From: Streptomyces sp. WMMC500
GTDB taxonomy: Bacteria > Actinomycetota > Actinomycetes > Streptomycetales > Streptomycetaceae
DNA length: 64,000 nt
Reading direction: 5' to 3'
NCBI RefSeq assembly: GCF_027497195.1
Contig: NZ_CP114905.1
Span: 7,141,001-7,205,000 of the forward strand
The position numbers and the translations under genes are program-made. Under the pieces are notes generated by a model. It searched no databases. It was not told the origin of the DNA and saw nothing but the letters and a program-made list of their open reading frames with translations. This document shows positions 27,550-32,256 of the stretch, piece by piece. Position 1 is the stretch's first letter. Each line of letters begins with the position of its first letter.

Positions 27550-30500
27550 TCAGGCCCGTACGAGCCGGAACGTCAGGGACAGCGGCTCGTCCGTGAACGG
27601 CTCGCCGTAGCCCTCGGCCTCGGCCGTCCCGCCCGCGGCGAAGTCCGTCGCGAGGACCTCCTCCGCGATCAGCCCGGCGTGGTCCGTGAGCGCCTGGCGG
27701 ACCTCGGCGTCGGTCGTGGACCAGCGCAGCCGGATCCGGTCCGCGACGTCCAGGCCGGAGTTCTTCCGCGCGTCCTGGACCAGCCGGATCACGTCCCGGG
27801 CCAGGCCCGCGCGGCGCAGCTCCGGCGTGATCTCCAGGTCCAGCGCCACCGTCGCGCCCGCGTCGGAGGCCACCGACCAGCCCTCCCGCGGGGTCTCCGT
27901 GATGATGACCTCCTCCGGGGAGAGCGCCAGGGTCTCCCCGCCGACCTCCACCGTCGCGCTGCCGCGGTCGCGCAGCGCGGCCGACAGGGCCGCCGCGTCC
28001 GCCGCCGCGACGGCCCTCGCCACGTCCTGCACCCGCTTGCCGAACCGCTTGCCCAGCGCGCGGAAGTTGGCCTTCGCGGTGGTGTCCACCAGCGAGCCGC
28101 CGGCCGTGCCGCCGGTGGCCTCGGAGAGGGTCGCCAGCGTCGTGACGTTCAGCTCCTCGGCGATCTGCGCGCGCAGTTCGTCCGGCAGCGTCGCGAAGCC
28201 CGCGGCGGCCACCAGCGCCCGCGACAGCGGCTGGCGGGTCTTCACGCCGGACTCCGCCCGCGAGGCCCGGCCGAGCTCCACCAGGCGCCGTACGAGCTGC
28301 ATCTGCCGCGACAGCTCCGGGTCGAACGCCGCCGGGCCCGACCCGGCCGGCTCCGGCCAGGCCGCCAGGTGCACCGAGGCCGGGGCGTCGGGCACGACGG
28401 GCACCACCAGGTCCTGCCAGACGCGCTCGGTGATGAACGGGACCACCGGGGCCAGCAGCCGCGTCACGGTCTCCAGCACGTCGTGGAGCGTGCGCAGCGC
28501 CGCCTTGTCGCCCTGCCAGAAGCGCCGCCGGGAGCGGCGCACGTACCAGTTCGACAGGTCGTCGACGAAGGCGGACAGCAGCTTGCCGGCGCGCTGGGTG
28601 TCGTAGCCGTCGAGGGCGTCCGTCACCCGGGTCGTCAGCGCGGCCAGCTCGCCGAGCAGCCAGCGGTCCAGCAGCGGCCGGTCCGCGGGCGCCGGGTCGG
28701 CCGCCGAGGGCGCCCAGCCGGCGGTGCGGGCGTACAGCGCCTGGAACGACACCGTGTTCCAGTACGTCAGCAGGGTCTTGCGCACGACCTCCTGGATCGT
28801 CCCGTGGCCGACCCGGCGGGCCGCCCATGGCGAGCCGCCGGCGGCCATGAACCACCGCACCGCGTCGGCGCCGTGCCGGTCCATGAGCGGGATGGGCTCC
28901 AGGATGTTGCCCAGGTGCTTGGACATCTTGCGGCCGTCCTCGGCGAGGATGTGCCCGAGGCAGACCACGTTCTCGTAGGAGGACTTGTCGAAGACGAGCG
29001 TGCCGACGGCCATCAGCGTGTAGAACCAGCCGCGGGTCTGGTCGATGGCCTCGCAGATGAACTGCGCGGGGTAGCGGGTCTCGAAGACGTCCTTGTTCTT
29101 GTACGGGTACCCCCACTGGGCGAAGGGCATCGAGCCGGAGTCGTACCAGGCGTCGATGACCTCGGGCACCCGCTCCGCGCGCAGCGCGCAGCCGTCGGCG
29201 GTGCAGGGGAAGGTGACCTCGTCGATGTACGGGCGGTGGGGGTCCAGGGACGACTGGTCGGTGCCGGTCAGCTCGGTCAGCTCGGCCAGCGACCCGACGC
29301 AGGTGAGGTGGTCCTCGGCGCAGCGCCAGACGGGCAGCGGGGTGCCCCAGTAGCGGTTGCGGGACAGGGCCCAGTCGATGTTGTTGTTCAGCCAGTCGCC
29401 GTAGCGGCCGTGCTTGACGGAGTCCGGGTGCCAGTTGGTCCGCTCGTTCTCGCTCAGCAGGGCGTCCTTGACGCGGGTGGTGCGGATGTACCAGGACGGC
29501 TGCGGGTAGTAGAGCAGCGGCGTGTGGCAGCGCCAGCAGTGCGGGTAGCTGTGCTCGTACGGCTCGTGGCGGAAGAGCAGGCCGCGCGCGTCGAGGTCGG
29601 CGACCAGCGTCTCGTCGGCCTTCTTGAAGAACTGGCCGCCGACGAGCGGCAGGCCCTCGCCGAAGGTGCCGTCCGCGCGTACCGGGACCTCGACCTCGAT
29701 GCCGTACTGCCGGGAGACCTTGAAGTCGTCCTCGCCGAACGGGGCCTGGTGGACCAGGCCGGTGCCGTCCTCGGTGGTGACGTAGTCGGCGTTGACGACG
29801 TAGTGCGCGTCGGAGAGGTCGACGAGGCCGAAGGGCGGCCGGTACGTCCAGCGCTCCATCTCGGCGCCGGTGAACGACTGCCCGGTGGTCTCCCAGCCCT
29901 CGCCCAGCGCCTTGCCGACCAGCGGCTCGGCGACGACGACCTTCTCGGTGCCGTCGGTGGCGACGACGTAGGTGACGTCCGGGTGGGCGGCGACGGCGAA
30001 GTTGGCGGTCAGCGAGAACGGCGTGGTGGTCCAGATGACCAGCGCCGCCTCGCCGGCCAGCGGGCCGGAGGTGAGGGGGAAGCGGACGTAGACCGAGGGG
30101 TCGACCACGGTCTCGTACCCCTGCGCCAGCTCGTGGTCGGACAGGCCGGTGCCGCAGCGCGGGCACCAGGGGGAGACGCGGTAGTCCTGGACGAGCAGGC
30201 CCTTGTCGTAGATCTGCTTCAGGGACCACCAGACGGACTCCACGTACTCGGAGTTCATCGTCCAGTACGCGTCGTCCAGGTCGACCCAGTAGCCCATCCG
30301 CTCGGTCAGCTCGGCGAAGGCGTCCGTGTGCCGCTGGACCGAGGCGCGGCACTTGTCGTTGAACGCGGCGATGCCGTACGCCTCGATGTCCTGCTTGCCG
30401 TTGAAGCCCAGCTCCTTCTCCACGGCCAGCTCCACCGGCAGCCCGTGGCAGTCCCAGCCGGCCTTGCGGGCCACGTGGTAGCCGCGCATGGTGCGAAAGC

Positions 30501-30720
30501 GCGGGAAGACGTCCTTGAAGACGCGCGCCTCGATGTGGTGCGCGCCCGGCATGCCGTTCGCGGTGGGCGGGCCCTCGTAGAAGACCCACTCGGGCCGGCC
30601 CTCGGACTGCTCCAGGGAGCGGGCGAAGACCTTCTGCTCGCGCCAGAAGTCGAGCACGGCGTGTTCGAGGGCGGGCAGGTCGACCTGGGCGGGTACCGGG
30701 CGGTACAGGGGCGTGGTCAT
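27550..30720 (-). CDS. ileS: Isoleucyl-tRNA synthetase IleS
   Basis: A 1056-residue class I aminoacyl-tRNA synthetase charging tRNA-Ile. The HIGH-like signature is GAHHIEARVFKDVF (HHIE at about 61-64). The KMSKS loop is DGRKMSKHLGN (Lys at about 598). The editing domain lies between them. Length and these variants fit the long, eukaryote-like IleRS type found in actinobacteria; some members of that type are less sensitive to mupirocin, but this is not shown here. The ATG has GGAGGAAGAG upstream, and that site can pair with a complementary CCTCCGG in the T-box leader. Confidence 0.96.
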   Translation of the reverse strand: MTTPLYRPVPAQVDLPALEHAVLDFWREQKVFARSLEQSEGRPEWVFYEGPPTANGMPGAHHIEARVFKDVFPRFRTMRGYHVARKAGWDCHGLPVELAVEKELGFNGKQDIEAYGIAAFNDKCRASVQRHTDAFAELTERMGYWVDLDDAYWTMNSEYVESVWWSLKQIYDKGLLVQDYRVSPWCPRCGTGLSDHELAQGYETVVDPSVYVRFPLTSGPLAGEAALVIWTTTPFSLTANFAVAAHPDVTYVVATDGTEKVVVAEPLVGKALGEGWETTGQSFTGAEMERWTYRPPFGLVDLSDAHYVVNADYVTTEDGTGLVHQAPFGEDDFKVSRQYGIEVEVPVRADGTFGEGLPLVGGQFFKKADETLVADLDARGLLFRHEPYEHSYPHCWRCHTPLLYYPQPSWYIRTTRVKDALLSENERTNWHPDSVKHGRYGDWLNNNIDWALSRNRYWGTPLPVWRCAEDHLTCVGSLAELTELTGTDQSSLDPHRPYIDEVTFPCTADGCALRAERVPEVIDAWYDSGSMPFAQWGYPYKNKDVFETRYPAQFICEAIDQTRGWFYTLMAVGTLVFDKSSYENVVCLGHILAEDGRKMSKHLGNILEPIPLMDRHGADAVRWFMAAGGSPWAARRVGHGTIQEVVRKTLLTYWNTVSFQALYARTAGWAPSAADPAPADRPLLDRWLLGELAALTTRVTDALDGYDTQRAGKLLSAFVDDLSNWYVRRSRRRFWQGDKAALRTLHDVLETVTRLLAPVVPFITERVWQDLVVPVVPDAPASVHLAAWPEPAGSGPAAFDPELSRQMQLVRRLVELGRASRAESGVKTRQPLSRALVAAAGFATLPDELRAQIAEELNVTTLATLSEATGGTAGGSLVDTTAKANFRALGKRFGKRVQDVARAVAAADAAALSAALRDRGSATVEVGGETLALSPEEVIITETPREGWSVASDAGATVALDLEITPELRRAGLARDVIRLVQDARKNSGLDVADRIRLRWSTTDAEVRQALTDHAGLIAEEVLATDFAAGGTAEAEGYGEPFTDEPLSLTFRLVRA

Positions 30721-30999
30721 CGGGGACTCTTCCTCCGGCTGGCGTGCTGACGGCCGAACCGGAGGGACGAGAGCCGGGGCTCCCGCGGTACCACCCTCCT
30801 TGGCGGCGGAGCGCGCGCCGCACGCCCACCGCCCCCTCATTGGGGCAGCGCTGCCGGTTCTACTCGCCCGGGGGCTTTCCTCCGGCGGCTCCGGGGTGAT
30901 CTTCGCTCCGCGCACGCCGCCCGGGCTCACACCGTCCCCGGGTCGCTCCTCGGCTGCGTACGGAGGTACTCGTCCCCATCCACGCCTGTCGCTGCCGAC
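30721..30999 (-). promoter_or_regulatory. Translational T-box riboswitch of ileS
   Basis: Reading the minus strand, the conserved T-box sequence AGGGTGGTACCGCG is at 30797-30784. Upstream, GGTG...GAAG-ATC-ACC forms a short Stem I with an isoleucine specifier codon ATC (30900-30898). Downstream, CCCTCCGG can pair with CCGGAGG, which contains the ileS ribosome binding site, so the switch should act on translation. Uncharged tRNA-Ile would bind and free the site. This matches the known ultrashort-Stem-I T-boxes of actinobacterial ileS. AGTGTA at 31000-31005 (TACACT on the minus strand) may be its -10. Confidence 0.88.
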
Positions 31000-31164
31000 A
31001 GTGTACGGCCACGGGCCGTGCGCCGCCGACAGGGTTTCCGCGGCGGCCGGCGCTGGGCCGTTCGGCCCAGCCCCGGCAAACCGCACGGGCGAGCGGAAGC
31101 CCGGGATTACCCGGCGCGGGGCTGGGCACAACGTTTTGAGACCGGTCAGCCATGGCGTGCCCTG

Positions 31165-31193
31165 TTGCCGCGGACCCAGTGTCGATTTATCGT
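31165..31193 (+). promoter_or_regulatory. Candidate promoter of the DksA/TraR-type gene
   Basis: TTGCCG (31165-31170) and TATCGT (31188-31193) are separated by 17 bases. Transcription would begin about 40 bases before the ATG. The gene is divergent from ileS. Confidence 0.45.
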
Positions 31194-31242
31194 TCCGGCA
31201 CCGTTCGCGAACAAGATCACAATATGTGAAGGGGTCCCGGCC

Positions 31243-32256
31243 ATGGTTGCGAAGAAGACCGCGCCGGCGGCGGAGAAGTCCACAGCGAAGAAGACCACGG
31301 CGAAGGCGGCGAAGAAGACGGCGAAGAAGGCGCCGGCGAAGAAGGCCGCCGCGGGCCGGGCCCCGGCGAAGGCCGCGGGGGAGCGGGCGGCGAAGAAGCA
31401 GGCCCCGCGGAAGCAGGCCACGAAGAAGGCCGCCAAGCAGGCCACGAAGGCGGCCACGAAGACGGCCGCGAAGGCCGCCACGAAGGCGGCCGCGAAGAAG
31501 GCCACGAAGAAGGCCACGAAGAAGCAGGCCACGAAGAAGACGGGGAAGAAGGCGGCGGGGAAGAAGACGGCGGCGACCGCGGGGGCGGCCGGTGGCGCCG
31601 CCCCCGCGAAGAAGTCGCCGCCCGCGAAGAAGGCCGCGGCCGGGAAGGCACCGGCCGCACGGACCGAGCCCGCGAGGAAAACCGCGGCACGGGCCGCCGC
31701 CCCGGCGCGGAAGCCGGTGCAGAAGGCGGCGGCCAAGAAGACGTCCGCCAGGACGTCTCCTGGGAAGAAGACGGGAGCCAAGACGGTGGTCGCAAAGAAG
31801 ACGCAGGTGGTGGAGGCCCCGGTGGCCGAGGCGGCGGGCGGGACGGCAGCTCCGGCCGAGCCGGGCGAGCTGGCCGTGCGTCCGGGGGAGGACCCCTGGA
31901 CTCCCGAGGAGGTCGCGGAGGCCCGGCAGGGCCTGCTGGACGAGGTCGCGAGCCTGCGCTCGGAGATCCGCGCCTCCGAGGAGGCCGTCAGCGGCCTGAT
32001 GCGCGACTCCGGCGGCGGCGCCGGGGACGACCAGGCCGACACGGGGACGAAGAACATCTCGCGCGAGCACGAGATGGCGCTCGCCGCGGGCGCCCGGGAG
32101 CGGCTGGTGCAGACCGAGCGCGCCCTCGTACGGCTCGACGACGGGACGTACGGGCGCTGCGAGTCCTGCGGCAAGCCGATCGGCAAGGCCCGCATGCAGG
32201 CGTTCCCGCGGGCCACCCTGTGCGTGGAGTGCAAGCAGCGGCAGGAGCGCCGCTGA
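31243..32256 (+). CDS. TraR/DksA-type zinc-finger protein with histone-H1-like N-terminus
   Basis: A 337-residue two-part protein. Residues about 1-200 are Lys/Ala/Thr-rich repeats (AKKTTAKAAKKTAKKAPAKK type), like the tails of histone H1 and bacterial HU-like DNA-compacting proteins. Residues about 215-337 form a DksA/TraR module: an acidic coiled-coil region, then a C4 zinc finger (CESCG...CVECK). DksA-type proteins bind the RNA polymerase secondary channel and tune rRNA and stress transcription. The Lys-rich tail probably holds the protein on DNA. The start is ATG 31243; the open frame upstream is not protein-like. Confidence 0.85.
   Translation: MVAKKTAPAAEKSTAKKTTAKAAKKTAKKAPAKKAAAGRAPAKAAGERAAKKQAPRKQATKKAAKQATKAATKTAAKAATKAAAKKATKKATKKQATKKTGKKAAGKKTAATAGAAGGAAPAKKSPPAKKAAAGKAPAARTEPARKTAARAAAPARKPVQKAAAKKTSARTSPGKKTGAKTVVAKKTQVVEAPVAEAAGGTAAPAEPGELAVRPGEDPWTPEEVAEARQGLLDEVASLRSEIRASEEAVSGLMRDSGGGAGDDQADTGTKNISREHEMALAAGARERLVQTERALVRLDDGTYGRCESCGKPIGKARMQAFPRATLCVECKQRQERR

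Follow-up and report, generated by a model that had tools for sequence, protein, structure and literature searches.

A translational T-box riboswitch with a long Stem I upstream of ileS in Streptomyces sp. WMMC500

The leader of ileS in Streptomyces sp. WMMC500 is a real translational T-box riboswitch, located on the minus strand at about positions 30999 to 30721 of the window (the whole stretch of 64,000 nucleotides that we analysed). We give the full reading, in which the ileS leader is a translational T-box riboswitch and its Stem I has the canonical long form, a probability of about 94%. An initial annotation of this DNA had proposed a translational T-box with an ultrashort Stem I. The translational T-box was supported: the leader has a specifier, a T-box bulge and a sequestrator, the genome encodes a tRNA-Ile(GAU) with an ACCA end, a search for terminator-like sites found none, and the elements stood in the order that had been claimed. 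The ultrashort arm was contradicted by a Stem I of 85 nt with an AGUA motif, both T-loop motifs and covariation over 32 sequences. Neither the type of element nor its location is new, and it is genus-wide and ordinary for the genus.

The regulated gene (27550-30720, minus strand) encodes an isoleucine--tRNA ligase of 1056 aa. The open reading frame starting at the ATG at 30720 matched TIGR00392 with 863 bits against a cut-off of 621 in an NCBIfam scan, and a genome search found this as the only full-length ileS match. A second genome locus matched IleRS in three pieces with 29-32% identity and presumably encodes another class I synthetase. Among the matches listed, the closest named relative was Streptomyces aculeolatus, 95% identical, in a collection that possibly lacks the window's own record; a plasmid search with the leader as query gave no match. 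We took the whole leader RNA as 30721-30999, with its 5' end placed by a -10-like hexamer, TACACT (31000-31005, minus strand), immediately upstream. A scan of the locus with the sigma-70 consensus found no promoter. TACACT or TAGACT was present 5' of the leader in all 34 genus leaders, and this conservation suggests that the hexamer is a promoter element and makes an own transcript start for the ileS leader probable.

RF00230 (T-box) matched positions 30991-30760 of the minus strand over its full length (model positions 1-219 of 219) with 50 bits (E 5.4e-10 for 601 bases). In the 8.6-Mb genome this was the sole match at E up to 10, with an E-value of 1.9e-9. At that threshold the control gave matches in 10 of 14 control genomes, archaea included, so that the E-value alone counts for the genome-wide match. 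The covariance search that had been proposed as a check returned a full-length hit, but one of 50 bits, far under the 93-bit gathering score of the family. A default Rfam scan of the window listed nothing because the match lies below that score. We found the same throughout the group: a match at E up to 0.01 was present in 135 of 246 class genomes and in 392 of 392 genus genomes (two sets that overlap; the control for these scans gave matches in 5 of 14 control genomes), and none of the 246 or of the 392 reached 93 bits. No genus genome exceeds the cut-off, so the low score reflects how the model performs on this group rather than a feature of this locus. Default Rfam annotation would miss T-boxes throughout the class and the genus, because no match there reaches the gathering score.

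Stem I (30893-30977, minus strand) is the long form and not ultrashort, as judged from the Rfam alignment and from comparison of leaders. Its arm runs from GGGGAC, which starts at 30977, to CACCCC, which ends at 30893. Along it the Rfam alignment placed, in order, AGUA (30970-30967), AGCGA, GGUGUGA and GAA, followed by AUC. AGCGA (30943-30947) is the AG-bulge T-loop motif and GGUGUGA (30927-30933) the distal-loop T-loop motif; their joint presence at the tip is what defines a long Stem I. The two have been termed an interdigitated double T-loop motif in a review of T-boxes, from which we also took the role of the AGCGA-type motif as first half of the elbow-binding module (PMC7583486); GGUGUGA is its second half. 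In an alignment of 34 genus leaders, AGCGA and the GGUG of the distal loop were invariant and both T-loop motifs were found in 34 of 34. They were also present in all 80 named loci taken as the best 80 of 587 relatives, 79 of which were titled Streptomyces and one 'Actinobacteria bacterium'.

The RNAalifold consensus of the 34 leaders contained the long Stem I. We moved its 21 pairs to a second alignment, in which 9 Stem I regions of the genus stood beside 23 from outside the genus; these 32 were obtained from 36 loci tried (L049, L068 and L069 could not be parsed, and L067 was omitted for its short Stem I). There 88.0% of 668 cells were paired, and 12 of the 21 pairs showed changes on both sides. 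The covariation score was 0.250, compared with at most 0.072 for slid structures, and none of 500 shuffles reached it, controls that do not fully remove relatedness. Support varied along the arm: pairing fell to 67% of cells in the weak lowest helix and to 76% in the helix at columns 39-45/80-86.

The specifier is AUC (30898-30900, minus strand), identical in 34 of 34 genus leaders and able to pair with the anticodon GAU; an isoleucine codon precedes the isoleucine--tRNA ligase gene. The ATC specifier had been placed in a short stem. Its identity and position (30900-30898) stood, but it sits on the 3' side of the 85-nt Stem I. In several genus leaders (L005, L009, L015, L020, L030, L062 and others) one additional base stands between GAAG and the specifier (GAAGCAUCA), and the spacing from the GAA motif to the codon is therefore not fixed. 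The genome gave 58 tRNA matches, and among the 30 run through ARAGORN there was one tRNA-Ile with anticodon GAU, whose 3' end has a discriminator A and an encoded CCA. Further tRNA-Ile genes may lie among the remaining matches. The UGGU of the T-box bulge is complementary to this ACCA, so that specifier and bulge both match a tRNA encoded in this genome.

Downstream of the specifier lies Stem II (30853-30889, minus strand), with five consensus pairs, GCCGG/CCGGC, in the 34 leaders, one of which showed a both-sided change. Its strands AGGAA and GAGUAGAA are S-turn-like, a name we apply by resemblance to T-boxes described in the review (PMC7583486). The following stretch (30802-30852, minus strand) probably comprises Stem IIA/B and Stem III, with tentative borders; it holds a conserved CCCAAUGAGGGGG motif and RNAalifold pairs, some of which (alignment columns 190-195/212-217) showed compensatory changes. 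A pseudoknot here is a candidate.

The switch itself consists of two helices that share a strand. In the antisequestrator (30761-30799, minus strand), GGAGGG (30799-30794) pairs with CCCUCC (30766-30761) below an upper hairpin, and the T-box bulge UGGU lies at 30793-30790. The sequence AGGGTGGTACCGCG, reported earlier for the minus strand, indeed occurs once in the window, at 30797-30784, and in none of 100 shuffles. In the sequestrator (30732-30765, minus strand), CCUCCGG (30765-30759) pairs with CCGGAGG (30738-30732). Their complementarity had been noted in the initial annotation together with the hiding of the ileS ribosome binding site, and both points agree with our results: the CCGGAGG arm covers the Shine-Dalgarno GGAGG (30736-30732), 11 bases 5' of the ileS ATG. 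The CCCUCC strand is common to both helices and the two folds are mutually exclusive. Computing them, as had been suggested, gave -35.4 kcal/mol for the sequestrator and -31.0 kcal/mol for the antisequestrator. Each of the 34 genus leaders had the off fold as the lower one, with differences of 0.9 to 4.8 kcal/mol and a mean of 3.8. The computed energies would fit a switch that is off by default and whose on state is paid for by the tRNA. CCGGAGG is paired in the off fold, and positions 30650-31300 contained no terminator-like site, with 0.3 expected by chance.

Within the genus, all six lower antisequestrator pairs were invariant in the 34 leaders, five of six sequestrator pairs never varied, and the antisequestrator covariation score was reached by 37 of 500 shuffles. 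Neither helix shows clear covariation at this level because both hardly vary. Across families, in 36 leaders, the sequestrator arms changed with compensation: CCUCCGUCG with CGACGGAGG, CCUUCACGC with GCGUGGAGG and UCCGUCAGG with CCUGAUGGA. Arms from the same leader paired with -18.1 kcal/mol on average versus -14.5 kcal/mol for crossed arms, and none of 10000 permutations was as good, relatedness among the 36 leaders not being removed in this test. Speaking against this, only five of the 36 had no better foreign partner, and ten had ten or more better foreign arms. All leaders were counted, including L033 and L059, in which the best duplex lay off the Shine-Dalgarno, and L049, L059, L068 and L069, which pair weakly. 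Among the best 80 of 587 relatives, a strict sequestrator pattern was passed by 64 of the 80 named loci, and the other 16 had CCUCCGRCGG...CCGUUGGAGG, pairing with wobbles.

From the T-box family we infer how the leader would work. The AUC codon would pair with the anticodon GAU of tRNA-Ile, the double T-loop module of Stem I would stack on the tRNA elbow, and Stem II would brace the codon-anticodon duplex. With uncharged tRNA-Ile, the ACCA end would pair with UGGU and hold the antisequestrator, which would take up CCCUCC, free the Shine-Dalgarno and allow IleRS to be made. With charged tRNA-Ile the contact with the acceptor end would be impossible, and CCUCCGG would pair with CCGGAGG and hide the Shine-Dalgarno. 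By analogy with the family, it is very likely that the leader senses uncharged tRNA-Ile and exposes the ribosome-binding site; how it binds tRNA, senses charging and affects translation would all follow the family pattern.

Folding of the whole leader by energy gave a different picture of Stem I. The unconstrained minimum-energy fold of the 311-nt leader was not unusual, with a z of -1.57 and 6 of 100 shuffles as good. In it the sequestrator was complete, with its seven pairs, and the antisequestrator region formed its upper hairpin. The canonical Stem I was absent from it: GGGGAC paired instead with GUCCCC (30727-30722) beside the start codon, and AUC was found in a tiny local hairpin, which may be the source of the short-stem idea. 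We set whole-leader minimum-energy folding aside as evidence on Stem I, since it misses that stem, and used comparative evidence; the T-box aptamer is recovered by comparison and not by energy alone.

This local hairpin would suit a translational T-box with an ultrashort Stem I, like those before ileS in mycobacteria and nocardiae, in which the specifier sits in a tiny hairpin loop and binding leans on Stem II. Such translational T-boxes, with a short Stem I and without T-loop motifs, do occur in the class (L141, L142, L148, L158, L159 and L067). In the window, however, AGUA, AGCGA and GGUGUGA follow one another in canonical order within a match to the full Rfam model, and covariation of the long pairs was seen over 32 sequences, 23 of them from outside the genus. 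We consider an ultrashort arm here very improbable. A T-box that acts on transcription through a terminator rather than on translation has an even slimmer chance. Most annotated T-boxes do act on transcription according to the review (PMC7583486), but the absence of a terminator-like site from 30650-31300, against 0.3 expected by chance, and a competing helix that lies on the Shine-Dalgarno and whose arms covary both speak against it.

The slimmest chance of all is that of a decayed relic that has lost its switching. The score well under the Rfam cut-off could be read in this way, and so could the greater stability of the off fold in 34 of 34 leaders, which means that switching needs energy from the tRNA, a term that the computed folds do not contain. 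Against this, 34 species show no variation in the motifs but compensated changes at other positions, and with 0 of 392 genus genomes above the cut-off the low score is not peculiar to this locus.

A census of 82 loci in 27 families placed this arm in a wider context. Both T-loop motifs were present in 70 loci and absent in 6, and 6 were unparsed; AUC was found in all 76 parsable loci. Of the 70 long forms, 34 came from the genus, and 20 of the 27 families had at least one. Because the searches behind the census used a long-form model or query, long forms are over-represented; judged from the motifs in this biased sample (70 of 82 loci), long-Stem-I forms are not rare in the class. Short forms differed in size. 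In L159 the sequence CCGG-CCAUCA-CCGG makes up the entire Stem I (14 nt), and 28 nt lie between the Stem I strands of L067, versus 85 in the window. L067 (893-1029), an ileS T-box with this 28-nt Stem I, belongs to family f19, in which ten other loci are long, and likely represents a recent loss of the elbow-binding arm.

Among other T-boxes of the genus, outside the window, we parsed 29 loci from the best genus RF00230 matches (L106-L134). Twenty-two lie before AspRS-like genes, five before SerRS-like genes (specifier UCC) and one before ileS, and one had no core; in another set, 2 of 61 loci lacked a T-box core in the span searched. The specifier was GAC in 20 of the 22 AspRS-like loci, the pattern having fallen elsewhere in L106 and L126. 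The AspRS type, with GAC and a bulge UGGC (UGGU in 7 of the 22), was also seen in L035, L051, L054, L064, L065 and L066, from other Streptomyces and some other families. The SerRS type, with UCC and UGGC, occurred in L043/L139, L113, L115, L117, L118, L128, L136:6791 and L140:4294. An NCBIfam scan identified the one AspRS scanned as aspartate--tRNA(Asn) ligase and recognised two SerRS; the AspRS and SerRS genes behind these T-boxes are presumably extra copies. A search by title or abstract, mostly outside subscription literature, found no published account of AspRS or SerRS T-boxes.

L136 and L140 carry Asp-type and Ser-type T-boxes in tandem, near radical SAM genes. Family scans of L136 and L140 recognised radical SAM and cupin-like genes, which lie next to the AspRS T-box on the opposite strand (L136:11263-13024 and L140:14423-15454), and L137 and L138 have start sequences similar to those of these radical SAM/cupin-like genes. 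Speculatively, this neighbourhood is possibly a specialised-metabolite locus that uses aminoacyl-tRNA.

We tentatively propose, at somewhat less than even odds, that in this class the translational ileS T-box originally had the long elbow-binding Stem I, which is still its commoner form and no exception, that repeated loss gave rise to ultrashort forms (L067 is an example), and that the same long-arm design is also found upstream of extra AspRS and SerRS genes in Streptomyces. Elbow recognition is usually argued to be tied to a race against a transcription terminator. If the long form is ancestral, it would not be tied to that race.

T-boxes before ileS that hide the Shine-Dalgarno were predicted in several Actinobacteria in 2005, in a survey that included two Streptomyces genomes (PMC1262725), and a 2020 review credits Sherwood et al. 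2015 with the biochemical demonstration of an actinobacterial translational ileS T-box (PMC7583486). Citing the same 2015 work, that review states that the canonical long Stem I is found in a few translational T-boxes and that most have an intermediate or ultrashort one (PMC7583486); in TBDB, translational T-boxes are covered by a second covariance model (PMC7778990). The present leader is otherwise the expected regulator of an essential housekeeping gene. What changes is the ultrashort label, now corrected, and the genus (a T-box match in all 392 genomes scanned) becomes an example of apparently translational T-boxes that keep the elbow-binding arm. Because the translational T-box structures named in two of the sources (PMC7583486, PMC10651847) are short-arm ones from Mycobacterium and Nocardia, a long-arm ileS T-box offers a natural test of what the arm contributes when there is no terminator to beat.

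With the actinobacterial translational ileS T-box as predicted (PMC1262725), the window shares the gene, the isoleucine specifier, the T-box bulge and the hairpin that hides the Shine-Dalgarno; unlike the well-studied actinobacterial ileS T-boxes, which have short arms, it has a long one. With the ultrashort ileS T-boxes of Mycobacterium and Nocardia (PMC7583486, PMC10651847) it shares the S-turn Stem II, the IIA/B region, the T-box bulge and the translational output, but those T-boxes have no elbow-binding module, whereas the window has the module and its stem covaries. The long Stem I, AGUA, AG bulge, GGUGNRA loop and T-box sequence are those of the Firmicutes transcriptional T-boxes (the RF00230 core members), from which the window differs in having no terminator and a switch on the ribosome-binding site. 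Its closest counterparts are the long-Stem-I translational T-boxes of the review (PMC7583486), which likewise combine the elbow-binding module with Shine-Dalgarno sequestration, and no difference was found from what is described for them there.
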